A stretch of DNA of 45,378 nucleotides from Rubritalea marina DSM 17716 (GTDB taxonomy: Bacteria > Verrucomicrobiota > Verrucomicrobiia > Verrucomicrobiales > Akkermansiaceae). The notes beneath the pieces are model-generated. The model did not search any database and was not told the origin of the DNA. It saw only the letters and a program-made list of their open reading frames with translations. Below are positions 4,495 through 27,811 of the stretch, piece after piece. The stretch is taken from positions 1 to 45,378 of the forward strand of contig NZ_KB899267.1 of NCBI RefSeq assembly GCF_000378105.1, given 5' to 3'. The translations under genes and the position numbers were made by a program. Numbering within the stretch: the first letter of the stretch is position 1; the number at the start of each line of letters is the position of its first letter.

Positions 4495-5435
4495 TTACTC
4501 TCCTCCAGTTTATTATCCGTGACATCAACCAACACGATGCGTGGAGGGACATGGTTTAAATCCACCCGCGTACTCGTAGCTCGAATACCGACAACCACTT
4601 CATTGACTCTTTGTTGAAGCAATGGAACAAGAACCTCTAAAGCTTCTTGATCACCATTGATTGACGGCCTTAAAATTTCTTTAGAAAACACATCATTGGT
4701 GTAGCCAAAGTTATAACTTGTAAATTTGGTAGGAACTACCTCACCTCCTTCTAGAAGAATCTCAAATGTGGATATCGTCTTGAACATTTCGGAAGAATCT
4801 TTCGAGTATCCATACATTGGAAATTTAACAAAAGGATACAAGACCCCTCTACCAGGAATGATTGAACCGAGGAACACCAAAATGGATAAAACTACGATGA
4901 CCATGTTGTATCGCTTCGGCCTAGGCAGATTCTCTAACTGATCATGATTTTCTGGTGCAAACTCGCTCGTATCAGCATCTACTAGCATACGCTGCCTAAG
5001 CTCCATACTAGGAATTGCACAGACATCCTTAGATACTGGAATTTTACGACGAACTTTGGCGATTATTCTATACCCCAGCCCCCTCAGCGATCGCGGCAAC
5101 AATTTGATTCCATAGATCCAACGGTATGATCGCTTAAGAAACTGAGCTATTTGGATGACGGCATCAGCTTCTTGATAGATCGATCCGTCTTGATCTATAA
5201 ATATAATAGAATCAATCTCGCGTAAAGGAGCAGGAACTAACGATACCGCCAATTGCGAGCCGAGAGGAGCAAATCGTATAAGCGGTTTTTGTTCACTCTT
5301 AATGACAAACCTCACCCAAGCATTGCAAAAATTGCATTCGTCATCAAATAACAATATAGGGTGCAAATCCTCATCGAGGGCGTGTTTATTCATAAAAAGG
5401 TGGCTACTTGTTAACAGCGTATTTGTCAAATACAT
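4491..5435 (-). CDS. DCC-family thiol-disulfide oxidoreductase with C-terminal extension
   Basis: Residues 25-130 are a DCC1-like domain: PILLFDDECNFCNAWVRFV carries the CxxC pair (Cys34/Cys37) expected of a thioredoxin-like redox site, followed by the RFAPLGSQ segment. After about residue 175 there is an extra part, with one membrane segment (YNMVIVVLSILVFLGSIIPG) and a roughly 110-residue soluble domain with no recognised family. Most DCC proteins are near 130 aa, so this is a fusion. A TTG at 5438 precedes the chosen ATG, and the ATG at 5393 is also possible because the domain begins just after it. The stop overlaps the HTTM start. Confidence 0.7.
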   Translation of the reverse strand: MYLTNTLLTSSHLFMNKHALDEDLHPILLFDDECNFCNAWVRFVIKSEQKPLIRFAPLGSQLAVSLVPAPLREIDSIIFIDQDGSIYQEADAVIQIAQFLKRSYRWIYGIKLLPRSLRGLGYRIIAKVRRKIPVSKDVCAIPSMELRQRMLVDADTSEFAPENHDQLENLPRPKRYNMVIVVLSILVFLGSIIPGRGVLYPFVKFPMYGYSKDSSEMFKTISTFEILLEGGEVVPTKFTSYNFGYTNDVFSKEILRPSINGDQEALEVLVPLLQQRVNEVVVGIRATSTRVDLNHVPPRIVLVDVTDNKLEESK

Positions 5436-5540
5436 CAATCTTCATGCCCAATTATACAACATAACCAATAGAACTTCCTGACTTTCTTGTATGCTAGCGT
5501 CATGTAATCACCGTAATATCACGCCCCATCAAAGAGGGGG

Positions 5541-6665
5541 CTAAAGGCCTAGAAGCACTTCCAAATACTTTTTTAGTACAATCTTCTCGTCGTATTCTTG
5601 TTCCACTTTGTCTCGACTGTTCGCTGCCATTTGCTTGCGCTCAGTAAGTGGCATACGGATCATGTCCAGCATGACGTCGGCAAGGCTCTGTGGATTTTTA
5701 GCTTCACAAAGTAAACCGTTGTAACCGTGATCGACGATTTCTCGGCAGCCTGGCATGTTGGTGGTGATGAGTGGCAGGCCAATCGCTCCAGCTTCGATCA
5801 ATGAGCGCGGTGTCCCCTCGCGGTAGGCACTGGGTAGCACCAGACAATCGGCATGGCGCAGGAAGGGGCGCACATCGTCACTTGATCCCTCATAGTGCAG
5901 CAACCCTTCACTTTGCCATTGCTGGACTTCCGCGAGGCTTACCGCACTAGGGTTCGCCACTCCCACAAAGCCAAGGAGCGAGACCCTGATCTTAGGGTAT
6001 TCACGTTTCACCATGCGCGTGGCCTCCACCAGATCGAGCAAGCCTTTGTCTTTGAGCAAGCGGCCGACAAAAAGAAACTCCATCTCGGCACCATCTCGCG
6101 CCGAATACGCGGTGCGTTGGAACCTGTTCAAGTCCACCCCTGAGCCCGGCAGGAGTCCTGCTTGAGCATGAGAAACCATTCCTTGCTCCAGAAACAGCTG
6201 GCGATCGTCTGGGTTTTGAAAGAATACCGTCCGCGAGCGGCGCAGCGCCAGTTTGTAGAGGAATTTGGCGAGGTTTTGGATCCAGCCGCCGCGCACGAAG
6301 ACATTACCCAGACCGGCCACATTATTCAGCACTGGCACACCATAGCAATGCGCCGCAAGTGAACCGTATATATTCGGCTTGATCGTGTAGCCTAGGTAAA
6401 AGTCTGGCTTCAGCTTGCGCAGCACCTGCAGGTAGTGCAGCATCAGCATGCCATCCTGCAGCATCGAAGTCCCCTGTTGCCTCATCGGCAACTCGACATA
6501 GTCGGCACCCAATGGCTCGATGCGGGCGCTGTAGTCATCCTTCGGCGCCACCACCGTCACCCGGTAACCCGCAGCGACAAAACCTTGGATCAAACCACTG
6601 CGGAAGTTGATGACATTCCATGAGGAATTGACGGAGAATAGGATGTGTTTCTTGGACTGACTCAT
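5541..6665 (-). CDS. GT4 glycosyltransferase, PglA/Cap1-like
   Basis: A 374-aa GT-B fold glycosyltransferase that probably adds one sugar to the lipid-linked repeat unit on the cytoplasmic face. The N-terminal domain has the family-typical NSSWNVINFRSGLI and GYTIKPNIYG. The C-terminal domain has FLFVGRLLKDKGLLDLVEA and a GT4 EX7E motif (Glu283 to Glu291, in REGTPRSLIEAG). This pattern is typical of the branch containing PglA-like N-acetylgalactosaminyl or galacturonosyl transferases, but the donor cannot be fixed from sequence. It lies 28 bases after the next GT4 gene and is probably co-transcribed with it. A GC-rich stem (about 5521-5540) follows its stop without a T run. Confidence 0.8.
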   Translation of the reverse strand: MSQSKKHILFSVNSSWNVINFRSGLIQGFVAAGYRVTVVAPKDDYSARIEPLGADYVELPMRQQGTSMLQDGMLMLHYLQVLRKLKPDFYLGYTIKPNIYGSLAAHCYGVPVLNNVAGLGNVFVRGGWIQNLAKFLYKLALRRSRTVFFQNPDDRQLFLEQGMVSHAQAGLLPGSGVDLNRFQRTAYSARDGAEMEFLFVGRLLKDKGLLDLVEATRMVKREYPKIRVSLLGFVGVANPSAVSLAEVQQWQSEGLLHYEGSSDDVRPFLRHADCLVLPSAYREGTPRSLIEAGAIGLPLITTNMPGCREIVDHGYNGLLCEAKNPQSLADVMLDMIRMPLTERKQMAANSRDKVEQEYDEKIVLKKYLEVLLGL

Positions 6666-6693
6666 GCTCTGCTAAATGCTCTAATGCGTGGCG

Positions 6694-7842
6694 CTATCCA
6701 TTGCTACAGGATTGGTAGACATCTGCCACTTCTTCGGCGCACTTGCGCCAGCTGAATTGCTTAGCACGCAGCAGCCCCATGTGCTTCATCTCCTCGGACA
6801 GCTTAAGGTCGAGGCAAAGGGATCTGATCCCCTCGGCGATCGAATGCGCTTGGTGAGGATCGACCAAGGCTGCGGCGTCACCGGCGACTTCGGGAAGGGA
6901 TGAAATGTTGGAAGTGACCACCGGGCAGGTCGAAGCCATTGCTTCCAGAACGGTCAAGCCAAAGCCTTCGAACAAGGAAGCATGGACATAGACTGAGGCC
7001 CTTCGATAGAGTGCCCGCAGCTGTTCATCACTGACAAAGCCCAAGAAGTGCACTCGGTCTTCCAGCCCATATTCGGTGACCAGCTCTTTCACCTGCTCAA
7101 AGTCCCAGCCGTCCCCCCCCACGGTCACGAGGTGATGCGGGATTTCATCTTTGAGTTCGGCCAGTGCTTTCAGCACCCCTTGGACATTTTTGCGCGGGCT
7201 AATTTTCCCAGCACTGAGGATGATCGGCAGTTCGGCTGAGGGCAATCCCTGCAGCGACTCCAAGCAAGCGGGATCTGGCGCAGCGAAAAACTCTTGCCCC
7301 ACCCCTTCGTGCACCACGTGAATTCTATCCGAGAGATCGACCCCGTAGTGGCTGTGGCCGTAGTCCAGCAACTCATCGGCGGTGGCCTGCGACACACAGA
7401 TCATTGCCACAGCCTGCTGTACCGCTTGATCGAGGCTATTCTGCATGATCCACGGTGGTGATCCTTGAAAGTATTCTGGGTGGGTGAGTGGGCCGATGTC
7501 GTGCACCGTGACAATGTAGGGTAGCTTGGTGGCGATCGGGTAACCTAAAGAGACTGCATGCAGGAGATCGGAGCGATGCTGCAACCAGGTCTCGATCCTC
7601 GGCCAATGGAGAAAATTCCACAGCAAGGGGGTGAGCTTTTGCCCCAGCGGCAAGATTTCTAGTGAGGTCTCGGCTTGCAGCTGCTGCAGGTCCTCTGCGG
7701 CACGGTTGCTCCAGGCCGCCACGGGCACCAAGCGCGGGCCATTCGGCAGCTCCTCCATCGCCTCGTACAGCTCATGCGCGTAGCGGGCGATCCCATGCCC
7801 ATTCTTCGAGGCAAATTGGTTTGAAAAGTAGGTGATATTCAC
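6694..7842 (-). CDS. GT4 glycosyltransferase (mannosyltransferase-like)
   Basis: A 382-aa GT4 enzyme. N-terminal GHGIARYAHELYEAM and the HDIGPLTHPEYF segment are typical of the WbaZ/MtfB-like branch. The C-terminal half has ILSAGKISPRKNVQGVLKAL and the EX7E motif in FEGFGLTVLEAMA. It should transfer a hexose, often mannose in this branch, to the growing repeat unit. The start is GTG, and GTGA overlaps the stop of the upstream gene, so translation is coupled. Base composition is high in GC, as for the other GT4 genes, and unlike the more AT-rich gene just upstream. Confidence 0.82.
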   Translation of the reverse strand: MNITYFSNQFASKNGHGIARYAHELYEAMEELPNGPRLVPVAAWSNRAAEDLQQLQAETSLEILPLGQKLTPLLWNFLHWPRIETWLQHRSDLLHAVSLGYPIATKLPYIVTVHDIGPLTHPEYFQGSPPWIMQNSLDQAVQQAVAMICVSQATADELLDYGHSHYGVDLSDRIHVVHEGVGQEFFAAPDPACLESLQGLPSAELPIILSAGKISPRKNVQGVLKALAELKDEIPHHLVTVGGDGWDFEQVKELVTEYGLEDRVHFLGFVSDEQLRALYRRASVYVHASLFEGFGLTVLEAMASTCPVVTSNISSLPEVAGDAAALVDPHQAHSIAEGIRSLCLDLKLSEEMKHMGLLRAKQFSWRKCAEEVADVYQSCSNG

Positions 7843-9850: not shown

Positions 9851-10768
9851 CTAGCGTGAAAAGTATTTAAGTTTGATTGGCTTCAGCACTCTATTACGGA
9901 GCCGCTGCAGGAGCTGAGCAAAAGCAGATGGGCCGACATGTTGCTGTGCCCAATCTGGATCGAAGGTGTCATTGCGCAGGTCCTCATCGCGGAAGCCGAA
10001 TTGCTTGGCGATCTGGCGCACGGGTGTCGCCAATTGCAGGCCAAACGCGGGGTCCTCGATCGCCTTCTTCAGGGAATTGCCGTGCACGCTCGCGCCGATG
10101 GCAGGCTCGTAGTCGATACCGATGAACTGGCAGACCTTGGTGAATTCCTCCACCGGATGCTCGGTCAATGCCTCGTAGCCTACTTCATGGTATTGCCCTG
10201 GATCGAGCATCTGCCTGAAGGCCAAGAGGTTCTTTTGGATGTTCAGCCAACCATACTGGCGTGTTTCTGGATTAGTACCGAACAATTGCTGGGCGGAATA
10301 CATTACCCCCAGCGGGTTGCGCACCAGACCAATGAACTTCACCTGACAGTCACACTGTTGCGCCCATTCCAGCATCAAAGAAAGTGCCGCCCAATGCGCC
10401 AGATGCTGCGGCGACTTTTCAAAAAACACGGGCTGCGCATACTTCTCACATAGAGCATCCCATCCGCGAAACACCAATTGCTTGGCGTCTTCAGGCAGCG
10501 CAAAATCAGGCACATTGCCCTTGATTCCATCCTCTAGGTAAGCCCGTGCATTGTGCTTCGATCCATAGTTTCGATAGACCTCTTCGCCAGCAAACAGCGT
10601 ACCCGGAATCTCGGTGATCACCGCTCCCTTGAGCCAGTGGTGGGTTTCATTGAAGGTATGCGGACAATACGCCACATTCTGGATCGCCGAATGCTTGCAC
10701 AGCTCGCGCTCGAACATGGTCGAGCCCGAGCGTTTGTCGGACAATAAGATGACTACCGTTTTCTTCAC
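9851..10768 (-). CDS. PAPS-dependent sulfotransferase
   Basis: A 305-aa sulfotransferase that should move sulfate from PAPS to a sugar hydroxyl. The 5'-phosphosulfate loop is LSDKRSGSTMFERELCKH (residues 9-26). The 3'-phosphate site is IGLVRNPLGVMYSA, with Arg150. I place the start at GTG 10768, 14 bases after the ligase stop, because the P-loop strand begins right there. A longer frame reaching 11011 would run over 230 bases of the ligase gene and adds only low-complexity sequence. The next gene starts one base after the stop. Sulfated surface polymers are common in marine bacteria. Confidence 0.78.
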   Translation of the reverse strand: MKKTVVILLSDKRSGSTMFERELCKHSAIQNVAYCPHTFNETHHWLKGAVITEIPGTLFAGEEVYRNYGSKHNARAYLEDGIKGNVPDFALPEDAKQLVFRGWDALCEKYAQPVFFEKSPQHLAHWAALSLMLEWAQQCDCQVKFIGLVRNPLGVMYSAQQLFGTNPETRQYGWLNIQKNLLAFRQMLDPGQYHEVGYEALTEHPVEEFTKVCQFIGIDYEPAIGASVHGNSLKKAIEDPAFGLQLATPVRQIAKQFGFRDEDLRNDTFDPDWAQQHVGPSAFAQLLQRLRNRVLKPIKLKYFSR

Positions 10769-10782
10769 CTTGCGCTTGTTTC

Positions 10783-12096
10783 TTAAGATTTGGCGTCTCT
10801 GGTCCCCCAGGCCGAGAGCACGTGGACAAAACCCAGCAACACGAAGAACAGCATCGCCCCGCGCGGCTGGGACACCGCTGCGTGGCCTAGCATGAACCAA
10901 GGCACCACCCCCACCAAGGACAAAAATAAGGTCTGAGCATACATCCCAGTGAAGCTCGTCTGGCGGATGTACTTGAAGGCGTGCAGCAAAGCCGTCCCCA
11001 GCAGGGCACAATAGGCAACGGCGGAGAACATACCATAACTGTAAGTGGCCTGTGCAAAGACTGCATGGTCAGCCCCGGTTTTAAAGATTGGGTGCATCGG
11101 CACCGATGCCATGCTGTCTTTGGCATTGCCGGTGCCAATGAATGCAGTCACCGGGTGCTGGCCAACGTAGATAAATGGATGCAGGTAGGCATAGACTCTG
11201 CCCGCCTCACGCGCATCGTCCAGCGGGGCATCAAACATCGCCGCAGTGCGGTTTTCCAGACGATCGAAAAAGAACATCTTGGAATCGGTTCCCATCACCC
11301 ACACCAAAACCAGCAAAAACATCCCCCCCACCAGCACCCCCGACTTGAGGGATTTGGACTTGGTGAAGAGTAAGGCGCCAGCCACCACTGCCAGCCAGCC
11401 AAGAATCGCACCTCGCGAGTAGGAGGCAAGGACTCCCAAGGGAGCGAGTACACAACCAGCCGTGATCACCAAGCGCCAAGTCAGCGACAGCGACACCCGC
11501 GATTTCTCACGCAAAAACAACACCATTGGCCATGCCGCATTCACGAAGAACCCCGTTAAAATGGACACCCCGATCAAGGACTTACCTCTTATCGCGCTCT
11601 CAGCATCAATCTGTCTTGTCATGTATCTCCCTTCACCAGCTGGATCTAGCAGCGGCAATTCAAAAACTATCCGAGCCAGTCCTCGCGTCGGAGGCAGTGA
11701 GGACAATAGCATCAGCACAGCGCTTACGAGCATCCCTGCCGCGATCCACTTGAACAGATAGATGGCCGCTTCTTTGTTGCGCACCAACCGCGGCACCAAG
11801 AAAAACAATGACATCGCTAGAATTGTACGAAAAATCGTGTACACTGGGCGGGCTATGTCATGGATGTACATGGCCCCATGCAGTTCACTGAGAAAGGCCA
11901 CCAGCATCAAGCCCAGCACCCACTTGCTCATTGGCGATGTCCGCGGCAGCTTCGGCAGTTTCATAGCATAGAACCAAGCGAGCACCCACAAGCCGTCGAT
12001 GAAATACATCGGGATAGGCCCCAAGCGTAAACTCATCCGGGGTGCCGCAAATAAGAGGAATAAAGCCACCCCCAACCATTTCAATGCCTTATCCAT
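10783..12096 (-). CDS. O-antigen ligase/polymerase family membrane protein (Wzy/WaaL-like)
   Basis: A 437-aa integral membrane protein with about a dozen hydrophobic segments and a long periplasmic loop (about 255-360) that contains the IGTGNAKDS turn and several His residues. This is the Wzy_C/O-antigen ligase layout. It begins MDKALKWLGVALFLLFAAP, with an AAGGGG-type ribosome site just upstream. It probably polymerises the repeat unit in the periplasm or ligates the polymer. A second family member lies at 26218, and which of the two is the polymerase cannot be told by sequence. The 168 bases upstream hold no gene and may carry a promoter. Confidence 0.78.
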   Translation of the reverse strand: MDKALKWLGVALFLLFAAPRMSLRLGPIPMYFIDGLWVLAWFYAMKLPKLPRTSPMSKWVLGLMLVAFLSELHGAMYIHDIARPVYTIFRTILAMSLFFLVPRLVRNKEAAIYLFKWIAAGMLVSAVLMLLSSLPPTRGLARIVFELPLLDPAGEGRYMTRQIDAESAIRGKSLIGVSILTGFFVNAAWPMVLFLREKSRVSLSLTWRLVITAGCVLAPLGVLASYSRGAILGWLAVVAGALLFTKSKSLKSGVLVGGMFLLVLVWVMGTDSKMFFFDRLENRTAAMFDAPLDDAREAGRVYAYLHPFIYVGQHPVTAFIGTGNAKDSMASVPMHPIFKTGADHAVFAQATYSYGMFSAVAYCALLGTALLHAFKYIRQTSFTGMYAQTLFLSLVGVVPWFMLGHAAVSQPRGAMLFFVLLGFVHVLSAWGTRDAKS

Positions 12097-18130: not shown

Positions 18131-19858
18131 TTATCCTACGACCCTTCCATTGTTCAAAGTGATCACCCGGTCACAATTCTCGATACTGGTCAGTCGATGG
18201 GCAATCATGATGAGGGTACGGTTTTTTTTGGCATTCTCGATGGCCTGCATTACTTTTATTTCGGTTGCATTGTCGAGGGCAGAGGTGGCTTCGTCGAGGA
18301 TCAAGAGCTGGGGCTCGAAATAGAGGGCGCGGGCGATGCCGATGCGCTGGCGCTGGCCGCCGGAGAGGCGGACCCCACGTTCGCCGATTTCGGTGTCGAG
18401 CCCCTCGCTTTGGCTGGCAACAAAATCGGCCAGACAAGCGGCCTCGATTACCTCCTGCAGTTTCGTCTGATTGACCTCCTTGGCTGGGACGCCGAAGGCG
18501 ATGTTGGCGCGAATACTGTCATCGATGAGGAAGATGGTCTGGGGGATGTAGCCGAGCATCTTGCGCCAAGCGTGGAGGTTCGCATAGATATCCTGACCAT
18601 TGACGCTGACGCTACCAGACTGCGGCTGCAGCAGGCCGAGGATGACGTTGACAAGGGTTGATTTACCGCAACCAGTCTCGCCGACAAAGGCGATCGACTC
18701 CCCTTGCTTCAGGCTCAGCGAGAGCTGCTGTACCACGGCGGTTTCGGTGTTCGGGTATTGGTAGCTGACTTGCTGCAGTTCCAGCGCCTCAAATTCTGGC
18801 CATTCTAGGTTCTGCTGCGGTGACCGCTGGGCTTGGAATCGCTCAATCTGCTGCAGGTCTTCGAGGATGCCAGGCAAATAGGATCGCGAGCCATTGATGG
18901 TATTGATGGCAGTGGCAATTCTCCCAGCCTGCGCCTTGAGCCGAACCACTGCGACAGCGAGCAAGGAGAGCGGTGCTGCCACCTCGCTGGGATCGTCCGC
19001 AAAGGCGAACAACAACACCGAGACCAGCAAGAGGCAAGTAATCGCCAAAGTTTCAATGATCACTGGGCTAACACGCATCACGGTGAGGCGCCTAGTCTCG
19101 GCCTGCGCTTGTTTGCGTGCAGAATTGTCGAAGCTCTGGGCAAGGTAGGCTTCACAGCCAACAATCCGCGCATCAACCAGCGCGCCAAAACCTTGCTGAA
19201 TTGCCTGGATCATTCGCGTGTTCTCACGGCGCAGAACATCGCCTGTGGCGCGCAGTTTTTTCTTAAAAAACCTTAAGGTAGTGGCCAGTCCGACCCCAAG
19301 GATGGCGACTCCAAGCATCGCCACCGGTGGGGTGCCGATGAGGATCGCCACAGCCACAAATAGGCACATCGACAGCCCCATCACAAGATCTAGCATAGGT
19401 AAAACCAAACCATTCACCACCTGTTGCGTGTCGCGCTGTACATTGTTCAAGATCTCTGAAGAACCGCGCTGCAGATGCCAATCGTAGGGTGCTTTCTGGT
19501 AGATACGGAACATCCGCGACTGCAAGCTCACGCGCTGAAAATTCACCACCCGTGCCTGCACATAATACACAAAGGCAAGGAACAGCCCCTTGAGCACAAT
19601 GAAGATGAGTAAAATGGCGGATGCCCAGATGATAAGCTCTAGGCTCGCTTGCGCCGGTAGTTTATGAAAGAGGAAACCAAAGTGCTCGTGCTCAGCGAGC
19701 TTAGAAGGCGACATTACCACCAACACAAACAGAGGAATGATGCCAACCCCTAGCGCCTCGACCAAAGAAGCGGCCATGATTAACACCAAAAGTAAGCTAA
19801 ACTTTCGTACTGCTTTCGCAGGGAACAACTGCAGCAGATCTCTTATTAAATTTTTCAT
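18131..19858 (-). CDS. ABC half-transporter, probable lipid-linked oligosaccharide flippase (PglK/MsbA-like)
   Basis: A 575-aa fusion of a six-helix permease (1-320) and an ATPase (350-575). Walker A is GETGCGKST (393-401), the signature is [16 protein letters not shown], and Walker B is [12 protein letters not shown], all intact. Homodimers of this type flip undecaprenyl-linked oligosaccharides (PglK) or lipid A. No Wzx is seen in the locus, so this is the best candidate for moving the repeat unit to the periplasm. The ATG at 19858 is preferred over GTG at 19864: GAGAG sits seven bases before the ATG but only one before the GTG. That site lies in a small GCTCT/AGAGC hairpin that could lower its use. 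Confidence 0.82.
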
Positions 19859-19873
19859 CAACACACGCTCTCT

Positions 19874-20897: not shown

Positions 20898-22979
20898 TCA
20901 TTTTTCATCGCTACCGTAGTAGCCATAGTCCTCTTGTCCGTATTCACCAAAGCCTTTGTAACCATGATACTTACCTCCCCCTGTGCGTTTCATCCCATTA
21001 ACAACGACACCACCTATTGTTGCTCCTGCAGAATTCAATAAATCCCTTGCACGCAACATCGCGCCGATAGGCGTCTTTCTCGATCTAACAACTAACAACA
21101 CACCATGCACATGCTTCGACAACAGTCTAGAGTCTGCGACCGGAAGTACCGGTGCAGAATCAATGATAATACGATCGAAACGCCCTTTTAAGTTTTCAAT
21201 TAAATCATGCATCTCAGAGTCATGCATCAATTCTGATGGGTTGGGAGCCTTACCACCTGAAGCAATAATAGAGAGATTCGGTATGGGACTTGTATGAATC
21301 GCGTGATCTAATGACACTTGATCAGCTAAGACCTCCGTAATACCTGGCGCATCTTTTAAACTTGGAAAATGTTCGGTTAACTTGGGTCTTCTCAGATCCA
21401 TATCGATAAGCAAGGTATTTTCCTTGTTCATTGCAAAGGCTGAAGCAATCTCTGCTGAGATCGTTGTTTTCCCTTCGCCAGGAATCGACGAAGTGACTAG
21501 AAGAACTTTGTTGCGTTCCTTCTTACCCATCAATATGATCGATGCCCTCAGGTTTCTTATTGATTCTGCATTAGGTGAATTGGAGTCATTTTGAAGCACC
21601 GAAGACCAATTACTCCCCTTACTGTGCCTATTAAATGTAGAAGAAGACGGGATAGCAGCTAAGCATGTCAAGCCACTTGCCTCTTCAGCTGAGCGGACAT
21701 CATAAATTTTATAGTCAATCACAGCCAATGCAAATGCGATACAAAATCCAGCTACAGCCCCCATGATCGAGCCTGCTGCCAGATACATCAACCGCACTGA
21801 ATCTTTCGCTAATCCGATGAAGGCTGGTTCGATAATTCTGATGTTACTCATAGGGCGATTATCAGCCACATCAATCTCAGTCATACGTTTAGTGATCAGC
21901 TGGTATTGAGCTCTTGATTGATCAATAGTCGTATTTAACAAACTAGCACGGGTTGCAAGAGCACTTTGTGCCAGCAACACCCACTCGTCAGCAGCCTCCA
22001 TGACCGCATCTTCATCGTCATTGGTGTCTATGATTTTTTCTAACGCATCCAATTGGTCTTTATACTCGATCCAGTATGGTGCTTCTGATTTTCTGGCTGA
22101 GGAACGTTTAATCTCTCGGGCAAAACGCATTAATAAATCATTGAATACTGCCTCAGATTGGATCCGAGCAGGGTGCTTTCTTAAGTAGCGCTGGCGGATG
22201 GCAATCACATTGGCCCGATCAGCTTGAATATCCTCGCTCAACTTTAGGGCTGAAACATACACTTGGAGAGCCTTTTCAGCATCTTCCATCTCCTGCCTCG
22301 CTGCGTCTCCTTCTTTTTTAAGAATTTTGAAGACATCATTTGAGCCGACCTGAGCCAAATCCTCTTCTTTTTCGCTATAAACGCGAATCAAGGTATCCGC
22401 AATCACTCGAGCAGTCTCAGGGTCTGGGTGTTTACAGCGCACCTCAATCAATGAGGTGTCGCGAATACCCGAAATGGATAACCAACCACGCGCCATACGA
22501 TTCACTAACTTGTATGTTTCGACAGAGCTAGCAGGCTTAAAAGCCAACTCCTCTTCGGTCAACATGTACCTTGGCTTCCATGATGACTTTGGGGGGATCG
22601 CATTTTGTAACGCCTGCACTTCAGGGCTGCGTGCTGTTTCCGCCAATATTGCTGGCCCCAGCAATTTGCTGGCCTCAGTCGCTAGGACAATGGCTGGTGT
22701 CATACGATCAACCGTCACACCCTTACCCAAAATTTGGCTATTCTCCATGCTTACCTCAATGATCGCGACTGCCTCGTTGCTGGGAGGAACAATCGACATG
22801 TAATACAACGCACCACAATAGCCGAGCACACCAAAAATCAGCATCATCCACCAACGGCTAAGCGCTTGTCGGACATTACTCATCCCCAATCTATTCGTAA
22901 TGAAGTTATCTTTACTCTGATTCTCTTCTGAGATTACACTAGTCGTTTGATCAGCAAATGGCTCGATGTCTGTTGACAT
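20898..22979 (-). CDS. Wzc-type polysaccharide co-polymerase with BY-kinase domain
   Basis: A 693-aa inner-membrane chain-length regulator. A Wzz-like region with helices near 43-62 and 397-421 flanks a periplasmic coiled-coil part. The cytoplasmic kinase has Walker A SSIPGEGKTT (497-506), Walker A' LLIDMDLRRPK (523-533, Asp526/Asp528) and Walker B FDRIIIDSAP (Asp607). The tail from 671 to 688 has six tyrosines (671, 674, 680, 685, 687, 688), the autophosphorylation cluster. All key residues are present, so it should be active. No low-molecular-weight phosphatase partner is in the window. The start has no Shine-Dalgarno site. A 130-base leader separates it from the export gene. Confidence 0.88.
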   Translation of the reverse strand: MSTDIEPFADQTTSVISEENQSKDNFITNRLGMSNVRQALSRWWMMLIFGVLGYCGALYYMSIVPPSNEAVAIIEVSMENSQILGKGVTVDRMTPAIVLATEASKLLGPAILAETARSPEVQALQNAIPPKSSWKPRYMLTEEELAFKPASSVETYKLVNRMARGWLSISGIRDTSLIEVRCKHPDPETARVIADTLIRVYSEKEEDLAQVGSNDVFKILKKEGDAARQEMEDAEKALQVYVSALKLSEDIQADRANVIAIRQRYLRKHPARIQSEAVFNDLLMRFAREIKRSSARKSEAPYWIEYKDQLDALEKIIDTNDDEDAVMEAADEWVLLAQSALATRASLLNTTIDQSRAQYQLITKRMTEIDVADNRPMSNIRIIEPAFIGLAKDSVRLMYLAAGSIMGAVAGFCIAFALAVIDYKIYDVRSAEEASGLTCLAAIPSSSTFNRHSKGSNWSSVLQNDSNSPNAESIRNLRASIILMGKKERNKVLLVTSSIPGEGKTTISAEIASAFAMNKENTLLIDMDLRRPKLTEHFPSLKDAPGITEVLADQVSLDHAIHTSPIPNLSIIASGGKAPNPSELMHDSEMHDLIENLKGRFDRIIIDSAPVLPVADSRLLSKHVHGVLLVVRSRKTPIGAMLRARDLLNSAGATIGGVVVNGMKRTGGGKYHGYKGFGEYGQEDYGYYGSDEK

Positions 22980-23109: not shown

Positions 23110-23928
23110 TCAAAATCTTGATTCCTGAACGATTACGATATCACCAGGCTGCATATAAAACATCTTCGCTTTTGAACTTTTGATGTCTCGAAGGCTTACC
23201 AAGATCCTTCTACCACTGCGGCTCACAATCACATCCTTCTTGTTTGCAATGCGGTCAAAATCACCAGCTTGCGCAATTGCAGTTAGGATATCCAACTTAC
23301 CAGTCTTTGGGAAATTCACGATACCGGGGTTCCTGACATTTCCTGACACAGTGATGGAGGATTGCTTCAGTGTACTCCGGGGCACAGTGATCGAATCACC
23401 ATGCTTCAAAACCTTGCTGCCTGAGGATTGAAGGTTATACCGCACAATCGCCCCACTTTTACTCCGAACGACAATGCTCGAAGTATCGGCTGTTTCTGTC
23501 ACACCTCCGGCCTGGGCTACTGCGCCTCGAAGGTCTAGCGCGCCTTCTTCAGGATATCGAATGGTACCTGGCGATCGCACATCTCCACCCACAATCACCC
23601 ACTTGTCAGCGTAACCAACGACTGACAAATTGACCTGAGCATTGACCAAGTAATCTTTTTCATAGAGGCCTTTAATCTCTGCTTCGGCCTCCTTGAGGGT
23701 TTTACCAATGAGTTTAACGTTCCCGATCAAAGGGAATGATACAAACCCAGACTTCCCGATCTGGGATTCGCGCGACAACTCTTCTTCTTGGAAAACGATC
23801 ATTTTGACCGTGTCATCTTTCTGCAATTGGTATTCTTTGGCATCAGCCGCACTGAGCAGTGAGGGAAACAACATAGCCGTAATGGCGATGCATACCGCTA
23901 AAAGATTTTTCAACATGGTAGTTTTCAT
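23110..23928 (-). CDS. SLBB-domain polysaccharide export protein (short OPX)
   Basis: A 272-aa periplasmic protein. A signal peptide ends near LLSAADA (28-30) without a lipobox Cys. A polysaccharide-export domain covers about 33-105, and two SLBB domains cover about 110-180 and 190-268. The chain stops right after PGDIVIVQE, so it has no C-terminal alpha-helical barrel segment as in Wza. In Myxococcus, short OPX proteins of this kind work with a separate beta-barrel, and such a barrel is encoded at 24846. The ATG at 23928 is chosen because AGG lies eight bases upstream. A frame to 23955 would start inside a terminator hairpin. Confidence 0.82.
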   Translation of the reverse strand: MKTTMLKNLLAVCIAITAMLFPSLLSAADAKEYQLQKDDTVKMIVFQEEELSRESQIGKSGFVSFPLIGNVKLIGKTLKEAEAEIKGLYEKDYLVNAQVNLSVVGYADKWVIVGGDVRSPGTIRYPEEGALDLRGAVAQAGGVTETADTSSIVVRSKSGAIVRYNLQSSGSKVLKHGDSITVPRSTLKQSSITVSGNVRNPGIVNFPKTGKLDILTAIAQAGDFDRIANKKDVIVSRSGRRILVSLRDIKSSKAKMFYMQPGDIVIVQESRF

Positions 23929-23940
23929 TGGTTGCCTAAA

Positions 23941-23978
23941 TATAAAGAAAAGCACCTAGAACGTACTGCTTAGGTGCT
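23941..23978 (-). terminator. Rho-independent terminator after the secreted unknown gene
   Basis: On the minus strand an 8-bp perfect stem (AGCACCTA paired with TAGGTGCT) with a 12-base loop is followed by TTTTCTTTAT. It lies 34 bases past the stop of the 252-aa gene and 22 bases before the start of the SLBB export gene, so it may reduce rather than fully stop transcription into the export genes. Confidence 0.75.
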
Positions 23979-24012
23979 ACTCTTGCGTGGTTAGGCATCG
24001 AAGTTCAATGCA

Positions 24013-24771
24013 TTATTCGTCAGTTGCTGCGCTTGTGGCCTGCGTGCCCGTGACTGCATTGCTGCCCGCGAGGCCATCATTATTTTGAGCATCTTGTTGA
24101 ACTTGATCAACAGCTTGATTGACAGCTTGAAAACCAGTAAGTGCGATTGTTTCAGAAATAGCGGTACCCGTACCTAGCGCATATTCGCTAGGAAGCTCTT
24201 CCTTCCTTTCAGAGCCATTCAGGTCTGTGATCGTCACGACCACTTTACCACCTGAGATCTTGGTGAGCTTTTTAACTCCATTCTTATCAATCTCAGTTGC
24301 CAGGATCACCTGGTTTTTCTTGAAAGGGTTTTTGAACTCGTATTCTTTAAGGCTCCCCTTGGGCTCAAACATGAGTAAGCTGACGATGACACAATTCGCA
24401 ACATTGAGCTTGGATTTGATGTCTTTTGCGGTGAGTTGTGGTAGCACCACATTCTCCATGACAGACATCTTTGCAACCGTCTTGGTCTTATTCTTCTTCA
24501 CATGCACAGCTTGGAGTACAGCGCCAGTAGGCACCTTGATATCCTTGGCTCCAGCGGGCAGAGTCACAGTCTCACCAGGCTTGACCGTGAATGTCTTCCC
24601 TCCAGAGCTGTAGCTCACTGGGCTACCGTCCTTTGGAGCGGTGATTGACAGGGATGATGGTGCTTTCTTTGCTTTAGCCGCGGCCGCAGCATTGTTTTGC
24701 GCTACCACAGTGTTGCTCACACCAATGAGTAAGGCTAGGCAGGCGACACACGCTTTGATCAATATTTTCAT
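24013..24771 (-). CDS. Secreted protein of unknown function
   Basis: A 252-aa protein I do not recognise. A signal peptide (MKILIKACVACLALLIGVSN, cleavage near VVAQ) is followed by an Ala/Lys stretch, a Lys-rich region with FTVKPGETVTLPAGA that resembles a small beta-fold, a central domain (about 105-200) and a low-complexity Ala/Thr/Gln tail. Neither lipobox nor membrane segment is seen. It lies between an outer-membrane beta-barrel gene and the SLBB export gene, with a terminator after it. This suggests a periplasmic or surface accessory of EPS export, which is inference. A palindrome (taagtactta, 24776-24785) is just upstream and no ribosome site is visible. Confidence 0.6.
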   Translation of the reverse strand: MKILIKACVACLALLIGVSNTVVAQNNAAAAAKAKKAPSSLSITAPKDGSPVSYSSGGKTFTVKPGETVTLPAGAKDIKVPTGAVLQAVHVKKNKTKTVAKMSVMENVVLPQLTAKDIKSKLNVANCVIVSLLMFEPKGSLKEYEFKNPFKKNQVILATEIDKNGVKKLTKISGGKVVVTITDLNGSERKEELPSEYALGTGTAISETIALTGFQAVNQAVDQVQQDAQNNDGLAGSNAVTGTQATSAATDE

Positions 24772-24845
24772 AAATTAAGTACTTATTTAGAGAGGATTAT
24801 GCCTCATCGTGAGACATCAGACAAGTTTCTAAATCTAGCAGCAAC

Positions 24846-26093
24846 TTAGAAGTCGTAGCCAGCGTCTAGACTGAAGACCCAGGTGTCGTAATCTCGAGTG
24901 TTGTCACCAGCGTCATTGTTAGCGTAACTAAGCCTAGAACCAACAGTCAAACCGATTGGCGTGCGATAGCTCCCTCCAACATAAACACGTCTATAATCAG
25001 AGTCAGGATTACCAGTCGCACCAGCGATGGTACTAAAATAATCATCTCTTTCCAGATTCAAGCCTGCATTGAAGTGAACACGGTGGCTCATTTTGTAATT
25101 TGCCTGAGCGCTCAGACCAAAAGCCTTGTAGGAACGACCAAAGTCACTGTATGACGCACGTATCGTGTTGTATAAAGTACCCACGATATTTGTCTTACCA
25201 GTCAACTGATAACTCGCTGCGAACTCAAATGTAGGGGTCGTCGTATTTTCAACTCCACCTCCTTCGTAGCGACGGTTTTCAACACCAGCAAAACCACTAA
25301 AGGTCGTCTTCTGCAATGCCTGATAAGTCGCCTTAACACCAGCTGAATAGGCTTTATGGTTTGGCTGTTGTTCAACATTCACAAATTCATATCCCACATA
25401 CGGCCCGAGAGTCGTCTTGCCAGTCACCTGATATTGCCATGCCAATCGAGCATTGTACCTTTCGCGATCAAACAAGCTCTCTGACTTGAAATCATCAGCA
25501 TAAGCACCCAAATCTAGATCCAAACGAGTTTTACCTGTGAGCTGGTGATAGATAGAACCTCTTAGGGTGTAGGTATTCTTGGCAATATTGCCTGAGGCAA
25601 ATCGGTCACTTCCTCGTGTTTTAGAGAAGCCCGCATTCACATCAATCACGGTTTTTTCGAGTGTCGCAGTGTAGTTACCATTCAAAAAATGATCCACACC
25701 ATCCTCTCTTGAGTTGTCAATGTAGGCATTAATCTTTGGGGTGTAATGAATCCCCCAGTGGTGCCTCGCAAACTCTTCGTTCTCCACTGAAATAGGGATA
25801 CTCATGCGAATGATCACATCCTCCACTTCATTGGTATTCGAGTTGAAAATATTGCTATTGAAGTCGGTTGATACCCGGACGCCAAATTTAAAGTAATCAA
25901 GCACAGAACCAGCAACATCATCTTCAAAGCCCTGATCGAATGCGTCAAAAGCAGCAGCCTCAATCTGCGAACGGGTAAACGCGGCATAAGAACCTTGCAG
26001 ATCGTTATCGCTGTTCAAATCTTGCCCCATCAACGACGTCGCTGCCAGCATTGAGGCGCTTGCTATTAATAGTTTTCTTGGGGAATTTTTCAT
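24846..26093 (-). CDS. Outer-membrane beta-barrel protein
   Basis: A 415-aa protein with a signal peptide (MKNSPRKLLIASASMLAATS), a roughly 50-residue N-terminal stretch, then alternating amphipathic strands with many Tyr, Gly and Asn to a terminal Phe (DAGYDF). Phe-ended strand patterns are typical of proteins assembled by BamA. The repeated phrase YQLTGKT/YQVTGKT/HQLTGKT marks strand turns at several places. It resembles exopolysaccharide-locus beta-barrels. It may be the outer-membrane channel paired with the short OPX protein. The ATG at 26093 is preferred because the signal peptide starts there. An upstream ATG at 26135 would add 14 residues ahead of it and overlap the -35 region. Confidence 0.78.
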   Translation of the reverse strand: MKNSPRKLLIASASMLAATSLMGQDLNSDNDLQGSYAAFTRSQIEAAAFDAFDQGFEDDVAGSVLDYFKFGVRVSTDFNSNIFNSNTNEVEDVIIRMSIPISVENEEFARHHWGIHYTPKINAYIDNSREDGVDHFLNGNYTATLEKTVIDVNAGFSKTRGSDRFASGNIAKNTYTLRGSIYHQLTGKTRLDLDLGAYADDFKSESLFDRERYNARLAWQYQVTGKTTLGPYVGYEFVNVEQQPNHKAYSAGVKATYQALQKTTFSGFAGVENRRYEGGGVENTTTPTFEFAASYQLTGKTNIVGTLYNTIRASYSDFGRSYKAFGLSAQANYKMSHRVHFNAGLNLERDDYFSTIAGATGNPDSDYRRVYVGGSYRTPIGLTVGSRLSYANNDAGDNTRDYDTWVFSLDAGYDF

Positions 26094-26217: not shown

Positions 26218-27657
26218 CTATCCCACTCGTAATGATGACCATGTGACAGCTAGGACACACGCCAAGGTAATAGCAATGGATTCTATCTGCAATGGAAAAT
26301 CAACCCAAGCATGCGTAAACATAATTCCTATTCCTATCGCTGCCGATAAGTAGATTGCTTGCTTCGTCGTACGCATCTTTCGGCGCCTTTGAGCCAATGC
26401 CCGAATACACAATACAAGAGCTCCAATGAAAAAAGACAAGTAGATGAAAAAGCCCCAATACCCCCATTCTAATAGTGTTTGGAAATGATCATTGTGCGCG
26501 TAAACATAGTAGTGATGCTGTAATCCATCGACGAGATTCTGGTTCTTACGGATCTCAAACATGGGATAAAAGCTCCCAGGCCCATACCCCACTGCACCAA
26601 AATCAGGTTCATGCACCATCTTCCATTGAATCTTATTGAGCTCAACTCTGATCTGCATCGTCCCATAATCATTATGAATCGAACGCCCCCATCGATCAGC
26701 CACGATATTGCTAAAACTCAAGGCAGCAAAGCAACCCGCTCCCACCGTAGCCAACAGAATGATATTCCTTTCATGAGGGCTACCACTTGGGAGAATGCTC
26801 GAAGCTCGACGATACGCAGTTAGTATCATCCGCCACCCAAAGACAATCCACAACAAGAGTGAGAGCACCGCAAAAAATACTCCGGCCTTTGAACCAGCTG
26901 CGACCGCCCCTGCGAACACCACAATCAATCCGATCAAGACACTAACCGTCCTCCATGGGCTGGCATTTTCAGATTTACTCGCTCTATCCACAGTAGCGAT
27001 GAGGTAACCAAAACCCACTGAAAAGCATAGGTTCAGGTATGCAGCAGCAATGGCTGGACTCCGAAATGTTGCGAAAAACAAATGCCGATTCGACCAGCTA
27101 AATTCAGGATTCCAATAAATGCCTGACGCCCCGGTCATTCGCTGAGCTAACCCCAAGGTAGCGACAGCAACCCCCGCCCAGAAAATACAGGCTACAATGT
27201 AGCGCATGCTCAAGACCTTCAGGTGAAGCAAGCGCAAGGTGCCCAAGAAAACCAAACCACATGGAATCAGGTAGCTCAGTCGATCCCAGGCTTCTCCCCG
27301 ATCAGGGGCTCCGGGAAAATCAGGGAATGGCACCCCCTCTCTCGGTAATAATTCCCACCAATAATGCACCCCTTCATGCACTTCATTAAAATAAAAGGTC
27401 GACTTCGCATTGAACCACATCCAGCCACCTTGCACCCCGAGCGCTATTAACAGACCAGCCAGCACCCACCAGACTCGATTGAGGCGCACATTAGAATCCT
27501 GCCCCATCAGGCTCCGCCTAGGCAAAGCTATCGCAAGCACCCCGTACAAGGTTGCCAAAATCAAAAGGGGCCAACGATAATTGCCCCAGTATGACCCCAT
27601 GTTGAGCGGACCAATGAACAAAAAAATCGCCAGCAGAGCGTGAAGTACTCTGCGCAT
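26218..27657 (-). CDS. O-antigen ligase/polymerase family membrane protein (second copy)
   Basis: A 479-aa protein of about twelve membrane segments. In the long periplasmic loop AVGYGPGSFYPMFE and the segment YVYAHNDHFQTLLEWGYWGF carry the conserved Gly-rich turn and His-Asn-Asp-His of the Wzy_C family. It is probably the EPS polymerase or the ligase that releases the finished chain. It differs clearly from the family member at 10783, so it is not a recent copy. The ATG at 27657 is preferred over a GTG at 27666, since neither has a ribosome site. It is the first membrane gene after the GH36-like gene. Confidence 0.8.
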   Translation of the reverse strand: MRRVLHALLAIFLFIGPLNMGSYWGNYRWPLLILATLYGVLAIALPRRSLMGQDSNVRLNRVWWVLAGLLIALGVQGGWMWFNAKSTFYFNEVHEGVHYWWELLPREGVPFPDFPGAPDRGEAWDRLSYLIPCGLVFLGTLRLLHLKVLSMRYIVACIFWAGVAVATLGLAQRMTGASGIYWNPEFSWSNRHLFFATFRSPAIAAAYLNLCFSVGFGYLIATVDRASKSENASPWRTVSVLIGLIVVFAGAVAAGSKAGVFFAVLSLLLWIVFGWRMILTAYRRASSILPSGSPHERNIILLATVGAGCFAALSFSNIVADRWGRSIHNDYGTMQIRVELNKIQWKMVHEPDFGAVGYGPGSFYPMFEIRKNQNLVDGLQHHYYVYAHNDHFQTLLEWGYWGFFIYLSFFIGALVLCIRALAQRRRKMRTTKQAIYLSAAIGIGIMFTHAWVDFPLQIESIAITLACVLAVTWSSLRVG

Positions 27658-27811
27658 AGAAAACACAAACTACAAAAGCTACCCTCTAGAATGGAAGTCT
27701 AATCAGTACTTTCTATCAGATTTTCTAACGAAATTTGCATTCGAAACCACCAAACTGGTACACAAGCTTAGCATACAGCCTCCCAATGGTTCAAACAGTC
27801 CGCAACTTCGC

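Follow-up and report, generated by a model that had tools for sequence, protein, structure and literature searches.

The 45,378-nucleotide stretch of Rubritalea marina DSM 17716 analyzed here (the window; contig NZ_KB899267.1, C21 in our numbering, of a 3.0-Mb genome) encodes on its minus strand, in this order, an outer-membrane beta-barrel, a small secreted protein of no recognized family, a short outer-membrane polysaccharide export (OPX) protein and a polysaccharide co-polymerase (PCP) with a kinase domain. Judging from domain content and a structural model, the barrel and the OPX protein belong to the described short-OPX/beta-barrel kind of translocon; the exporter itself is already known, and the conserved third gene lying between the two is the new part. 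With modest confidence, we favor the reading that polymer passes from the PCP through an OPX ring into the barrel, with the third protein serving as an accessory at the barrel/OPX junction. The cassette is laid out as follows:

24846 to 26093, minus strand: outer-membrane beta-barrel, 415 residues, modelled with 18 strands, EpsL/EpsX/AlgE-like, with a signal-like N-terminus and a C-terminal Phe (ATG at 26093, stop at 24846)
24013 to 24771, minus strand: third protein, 252 residues, predicted to be secreted (signal-like N-terminal stretch, by eye)
23952 to 23977, minus strand: terminator-like hairpin with a T-rich run after it, in the gap from the third gene to the OPX gene (folding and shuffles)
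23110 to 23928, minus strand: OPX protein, predicted periplasmic, 272 residues, Poly_export and two SLBB domains, D1D2D2 (ATG at 23928, stop at 23110)
20898 to 22979, minus strand: PCP with a tyrosine autokinase domain, 693 residues (domain matches; PCP homologs occur in the cassette loci of relatives)

The OPX protein carries a Poly_export domain (PF02563, residues 28-103, E 1.7e-20) and ends five residues after its SLBB_2 match (residues 192-267), leaving no room for a C-terminal membrane helix. Judged from sequence only, such a helix is absent; the protein thus lacks the amphipathic helix that follows SLBB in Wza, the class 1 OPX, and falls within the published bounds of short OPX proteins (<=280 residues, no C-terminal helix). 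Given that a Val precedes Cys13 in its signal peptide, no usual lipobox is present. The initial annotation of this DNA had described such an OPX protein, ending after its second SLBB domain without lipobox or helix, one gene away from a beta-barrel with a C-terminal Phe and separated from it by a secreted 252-residue protein of no recognized family, and on all these points it is borne out. The best NCBIfam match of the OPX protein is the XrtB/PEP-CTERM EpsE family (TIGR03028, 90 bits against a cut-off of 262.65), and its closest counterpart among 14 loci from a scan with the OPX alignment is that of Rubritalea profundi (order Verrucomicrobiales), at 67% identity.

The barrel has one family match, to NCBIfam TIGR03014 EpsL (E 1.1e-15, 57.5 bits, under the cut-off of 275), so that a known relative exists, a correction to the initial annotation. 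A model built from an 8-row alignment has 18 strands and a mean pLDDT (predicted local distance difference test) of 81.9, residues 1-62 being of low confidence. AlgE entries come out top for this model in VIA-align (Z 20.7, root-mean-square deviation 4.7 over 308), and 18 strands with AlgE as top solved structure is the same result as published for Myxococcus EpsX. Across the order, barrel matches number 56, in 47 of 140 other genomes; for 40 of them (37 genomes) an OPX match follows downstream on the same strand after an estimated gap of no more than 844 bases. This count is a lower bound, since OPX matches were taken at E 1e-10 or better; 70 of 76 OPX rows entered it, without the row of the window itself and five rows that are second pieces of one gene. 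Because it recurs across the order, the barrel/OPX arrangement is not due to chance. In an Akkermansia-like genus (g2), 20 of the 21 genomes listed have no barrel match; Wza (amuc_2077) is reported as required for capsule in PMC13343947, in whose main text the word "barrel" does not appear. The R. marina genome itself has SLBB matches on three further contigs (C12:19800-21285, C14:29446, C3:70244), and the window barrel is its sole TIGR03014 match; thus, its further exporters may rely on partners other than this barrel type.

Couples of a barrel with a helix-less OPX protein of at most 280 residues have been described in 10 phyla; ten OPX proteins were examined, five of less than 200 residues being D1D2 and five of more than 250 being D1D2D2, EpsX and EpsY of Myxococcus were shown to bind, AlgE is the nearest fold of EpsX, and the myxobacterial D1D2 proteins are, in all but one case, predicted lipoproteins (available text of PMC9601211). 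The window pair resembles EpsY/EpsX and VpsN/VpsM of that text in having a short helix-less OPX protein, a nearby 18-stranded barrel with AlgE as nearest structure, and PCP and polysaccharide genes; it differs by the secreted-protein gene between the pair and by the missing lipobox. It also agrees with D1D2D2-OPX/barrel couples in detail: the barrel, expected within five genes of the OPX gene, is one gene away, also in relatives; polysaccharide genes are nearby (PCP kinase, Wzy_C, glycosyltransferases); and the barrel has 18 strands with AlgE as nearest solved fold, though Foldseek alone favors OccK porins. The name class 3 has been given to OPX proteins without the helix, among them WzaX/S/B, which consist of Poly_export and SLBB only and whose partners WzpX/S/B are 18-stranded, PgaA-like barrels (available text of PMC9603273); here, in distinction, an extra gene stands between barrel and OPX. 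The XrtB pair EpsE/EpsL provides the best NCBIfam families for OPX and barrel, both far under curated cut-offs, and no exosortase is found at the locus, the four PF09721 matches of the genome lying on contigs C13, C20 and C4 rather than C21. By description, E. coli gfcABCD (group 4 capsule) and yjbEFGH likewise encode a small protein with a capsule barrel and an OPX protein: GfcA, encoded beside the barrel, is perhaps a 101-residue inner-membrane or secreted protein with 30% threonine, whereas GfcD is thought to be 26-stranded and GfcE is a Wza paralog (available text of PMC8592465). The window protein, with 252 residues and 9% threonine, is not of the short, threonine-rich GfcA/YjbE type. The Myxococcus-type pairing proposed in the initial annotation therefore holds, and it was already in print; a third component of such translocons is not described in the available text of the literature consulted, which includes PMC9601211, PMC9603273, PMC1569441, PMC8592465 and PMC13343947.

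What, then, is the third protein? A Pfam scan gives no match at E 0.1 and none at E 1, PF17210 (SdrD_B) included; NCBIfam gives two weak matches far under cut-off (E 0.014 and 0.04), tblastn against plasmids no match, and a sequence search of the PDB nothing at E 1. Fold searches with its model return nothing significant (Foldseek best E 0.083; best Z 3.9, to TRAP), and profile comparison of third proteins with the SLBB region of OPX gives a weak match (probability 18% over 35 columns). A cupin-like reading of the N-terminal domain, which rests on a single relative (G146, PF21621 E 7e-5, below cut-off), was not adopted. The predicted layout is a beta-domain at about residues 38-120, a helix at 206-234 (low confidence) and a degenerate C-terminal tail, the middle region not being found in shorter relatives.

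Sequence searches with the third protein find a match in 2 of 141 genomes in the order, 7 of 195 in the family and 3 of 387 in the phylum, counts that include the window's own genome each time and four matches that were later rejected (G264, G260, G554, G461). The stretches around these four contain no OPX match, and on reading the four matches comprise a 77-residue frame, two LysM-like-looking proteins and one mannose-6-phosphate-isomerase-like protein. A profile search of 386 genomes yields 12 matches, five of them marginal (E 0.001-0.01: G060, G735, G019, G245, G670) and seven at E 2.4e-9 or better: the window's genome, G006, G146, G147, G160, G184 and G182, which is apparently R. profundi. 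In all seven the gene lies between barrel and OPX; among 19 close relatives searched, five have this OPX protein and all five have the third gene. The sequences vary much, being only 21-29% identical to the window protein. Conserved are the beta-domain and, in G146, G147, G160 and G184, a motif VNPx[NT][VI]...TDxN, which is C-terminal in G146, G147 and G160 and precedes a fused part in G184; VNPVN stands earlier in G006, and the motif is missing from the window and R. profundi proteins. Threonine content is 33% in R. profundi and 5-13% in the five proteins other than this one and that of the window.

A natural fusion is the best indication that the third protein acts at OPX. In G184 the protein is 525 residues long, with a C-terminal SLBB domain (SLBB_2 at E 1.1e-4, below cut-off); in BLAST this domain shares 54% identity with the final SLBB of the G160 OPX protein and 49% with the final SLBB of the G184 OPX protein. 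The G184 OPX protein is itself intact and encoded downstream of the fusion gene; the fusion is known from a single contig of a metagenome-assembled genome with a read depth of about 5. The same third protein (L084:628-2205 = L100:628-2205) also has a Cys-containing stretch, probably helical, without a Pfam match.

A parallel gene occupies the same slot elsewhere in Verrucomicrobiales. In family f2, small secreted proteins with SdrD_B-like domains lie between barrel and two-SLBB OPX; they share the slot and a signal-like N-terminus with the window protein and differ in their N-terminal domain. PF17210 is matched by all six that were scanned, five above cut-off. They have a conserved end, NPAN..G..VSPFAP, and 12 of the 13 third proteins of this second clade have the NP motif, G047 being without the tail; in G127 the tail is present and the N-terminal part looks different by eye. 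An NP-x-[NTSA] motif within the last 45 residues is found in 5 of 7 third proteins of the window clade (not in the window protein) and in 12 of 13 of the second clade, against 10 of 409 other frames; one of these ten is the G107 third gene read from an earlier start, which gives 9 of 408, and the pool includes spurious frames. When a tail profile of the second clade (12 of the 13 proteins) was run over 416 sequences, of which 279 were scored, the first-clade tails ranked 2, 7, 18, 19, 28, 39 and 214, rank 1 having the score expected of the G107 copy. These results are no more than suggestive of a tail common to the third proteins of both clades. In a search of the phylum with the SdrD-type proteins, SdrD_B domains in large frames dominated the matches, and nothing on the tail can be read from it.

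Presence of a third gene goes with the type of OPX protein. Of 56 OPX genes beside a barrel, 24 encode two SLBB domains, and 18 of these have a third gene next to them; the figure is 1 of 28 for one-SLBB genes and 0 of 4 for three-SLBB genes. One-SLBB proteins were split off at a core length of 215, and two were told from three by core length (247-279 against 341-360). The typing covers OPX genes with a recognized barrel within 1.5 kb, which leaves out L065, L127, L135, L136, L138, L149, L150, L151, L155, L157 and L162; also left out are L057, L063 and L069 (barrel not on the stretch) and G083 (OPX cut by the contig end, third gene present). G184 is counted although its barrel is cut at a contig end, and the third genes of G107 and G127 were identified by eye and not by the automated rule. 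Without a third gene, the gap between barrel and OPX is 194 bases at most. On the OPX tree the third genes fall in two supported clades, of 12 rows (100/98) and in 7 of 8 rows (100/97), a distribution of three changes; none of 500 shuffles was as low, near-copies favoring that outcome. The sole one-SLBB protein with a third gene, in G047 (L148:3738-4271, reverse strand), branches first in the f2 clade, in which all other members are two-SLBB proteins. The G004 OPX protein (L066:967-2001, reverse strand) has a long Ser/Ala/Gln-rich N-terminal extension before Poly_export, filling the space of a third gene. G146 has two PCP-kinase genes (L083:2196-4259 and 5221-7266), one adjoining OPX and the other about 1 kb beyond.

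The 84-nt gap between the third gene and OPX in the window folds better than expected (z -3.75, 1 of 200 shuffles as good), and for three further gaps the folding is not better than that of shuffled sequence (z -1.4, -0.9 and +1.5). A hairpin with a T-run lies at this place in all three Rubritalea genomes, the window's, R. profundi and G146 (for each, 0 of 40 mononucleotide shuffles). The gap from barrel to third gene contains no such hairpin in these three. After OPX a hairpin is seen in G146 only, where it is weaker (3 of 40 shuffles); R. profundi was scanned there over the first 200 bases. The same rule finds no hairpin in G147, G160, G184, G006 and eight of nine f2 genomes, G006 having a strong stem with only four T. 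A default promoter/terminator scan gave no excess over shuffles and did not list the hairpin at 23952-23977, and Rfam gave no match. The hairpin ahead of OPX, with none after the barrel, suggests that, in Rubritalea, barrel and third gene form a single dosage unit; this fits a third protein that partners the barrel or is exported no less well than one that partners OPX.

Glycosyltransferases, a PglK-like ATP-binding cassette (ABC) transporter, an epimerase-family enzyme and two Wzy_C proteins, one above cut-off and the other just under it, surround the cassette and mark this as a polysaccharide locus by gene content. Two of these are:

26218 to 27666, minus strand: Wzy_C/O-antigen ligase-like polymerase candidate (PF04932, E 7.9e-10, above cut-off)
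18131 to 19864, minus strand: PglK/MsbA-like ABC transporter, a flippase candidate for this locus (domain and family matches)

Elsewhere in the window, frames 9851-11011 and 10783-12096 lie on the same strand and share 229 nt; the first frame probably starts downstream of its listed TTG.

In the mechanism that we favor, the PCP kinase and a Wzy-type polymerase would feed polysaccharide to OPX, a periplasmic, helix-less OPX ring would dock beneath the 18-stranded, AlgE-like barrel, and the third protein would be a periplasmic accessory with its N-terminal beta-domain and C-terminal tail at the junction of the two, as adaptor or gate. Several observations weigh against it. The third gene is missing from 6 of the 24 two-SLBB cassettes, and in G009 barrel and OPX are 73 bp apart with no third gene, so that the gene is dispensable. 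Its association with OPX type amounts to those three changes on the tree, not to 18 independent events, and profile comparison of the third proteins of the two clades does not support homology (probability 8.7%). The third-protein model has a mean pLDDT of 52.8 and is poor outside residues 38-115 of the beta-domain. The position of the hairpin before OPX hints that the ratio of third protein to OPX is perhaps not fixed. As to the barrel, a BenF-like porin and OprD/OccK-type porins follow AlgE by about 1.4 Z in VIA-align (19.3 and less), and in Foldseek OccK porins lead and AlgE is absent from the best 50 matches listed; the doubt about a porin-type barrel raised in the initial annotation is answered in part. 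The conserved neighborhood on which that annotation had made its proposal depend is present, in seven genomes for the third gene and in 40 of 56 barrels lying by OPX, and its candidate third component is strengthened by kept position, SLBB fusion and parallel gene; an exported product is also conceivable.

Could the third protein be cargo rather than machinery? It might be a small protein, secreted as a carrier or for the matrix and perhaps glycosylated, that leaves through or together with the OPX/barrel system, much as the authors of PMC8592465 propose that GfcA is possibly modified with O-antigen and directed to GfcD for export. We regard this as possible, though less probable than an accessory role: the threonine-rich R. 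profundi protein, the variability of the sequences and the Rubritalea hairpin, which would give more third protein than OPX, speak for it, whereas the low threonine content of the window protein and of the other five, the tie to OPX made by the G184 fusion, and C-terminal ends kept in 4 of 7 proteins of the window clade and 12 of 13 of the second clade speak against it. It is unlikely that only the two-part D1D2D2-OPX/barrel translocon is real and the third gene an unrelated passenger inherited with the locus; its absence from a quarter of two-SLBB cassettes and the low identity of its products would fit, yet the slot is kept in seven genomes, filled in parallel in a second clade and once fused to SLBB. 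A barrel acting as a plain diffusion porin, with OPX served by a different partner, is very improbable, given its genetic coupling to OPX throughout the order and its EpsL match, good as the fit of its model to OprD/OccK porins is.

Extending the junction-accessory reading, it is conceivable, and we put it forward tentatively, that a genuine third subunit belongs to the two-SLBB translocons of Verrucomicrobiales, its slot taken by varied small beta-domain proteins whose tail would dock at the junction and gate or seal the channel, the subunit of one lineage having captured a copy of the terminal SLBB of OPX, with which it may enter the ring. The initial annotation called the exporter under-described in its phylum, and fairly: the OPX/barrel system is here extended through an order of a phylum for which the string "Verrucomicrob" does not occur in the main text of PMC9601211 or PMC9603273. 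The part added to the known exporter is a gene of conserved position. How does a helix-less OPX ring join its barrel, and what holds the pore shut? The conserved third gene, in one lineage fused to an OPX domain, is a testable candidate for joining the ring to the barrel or for closing the pore.

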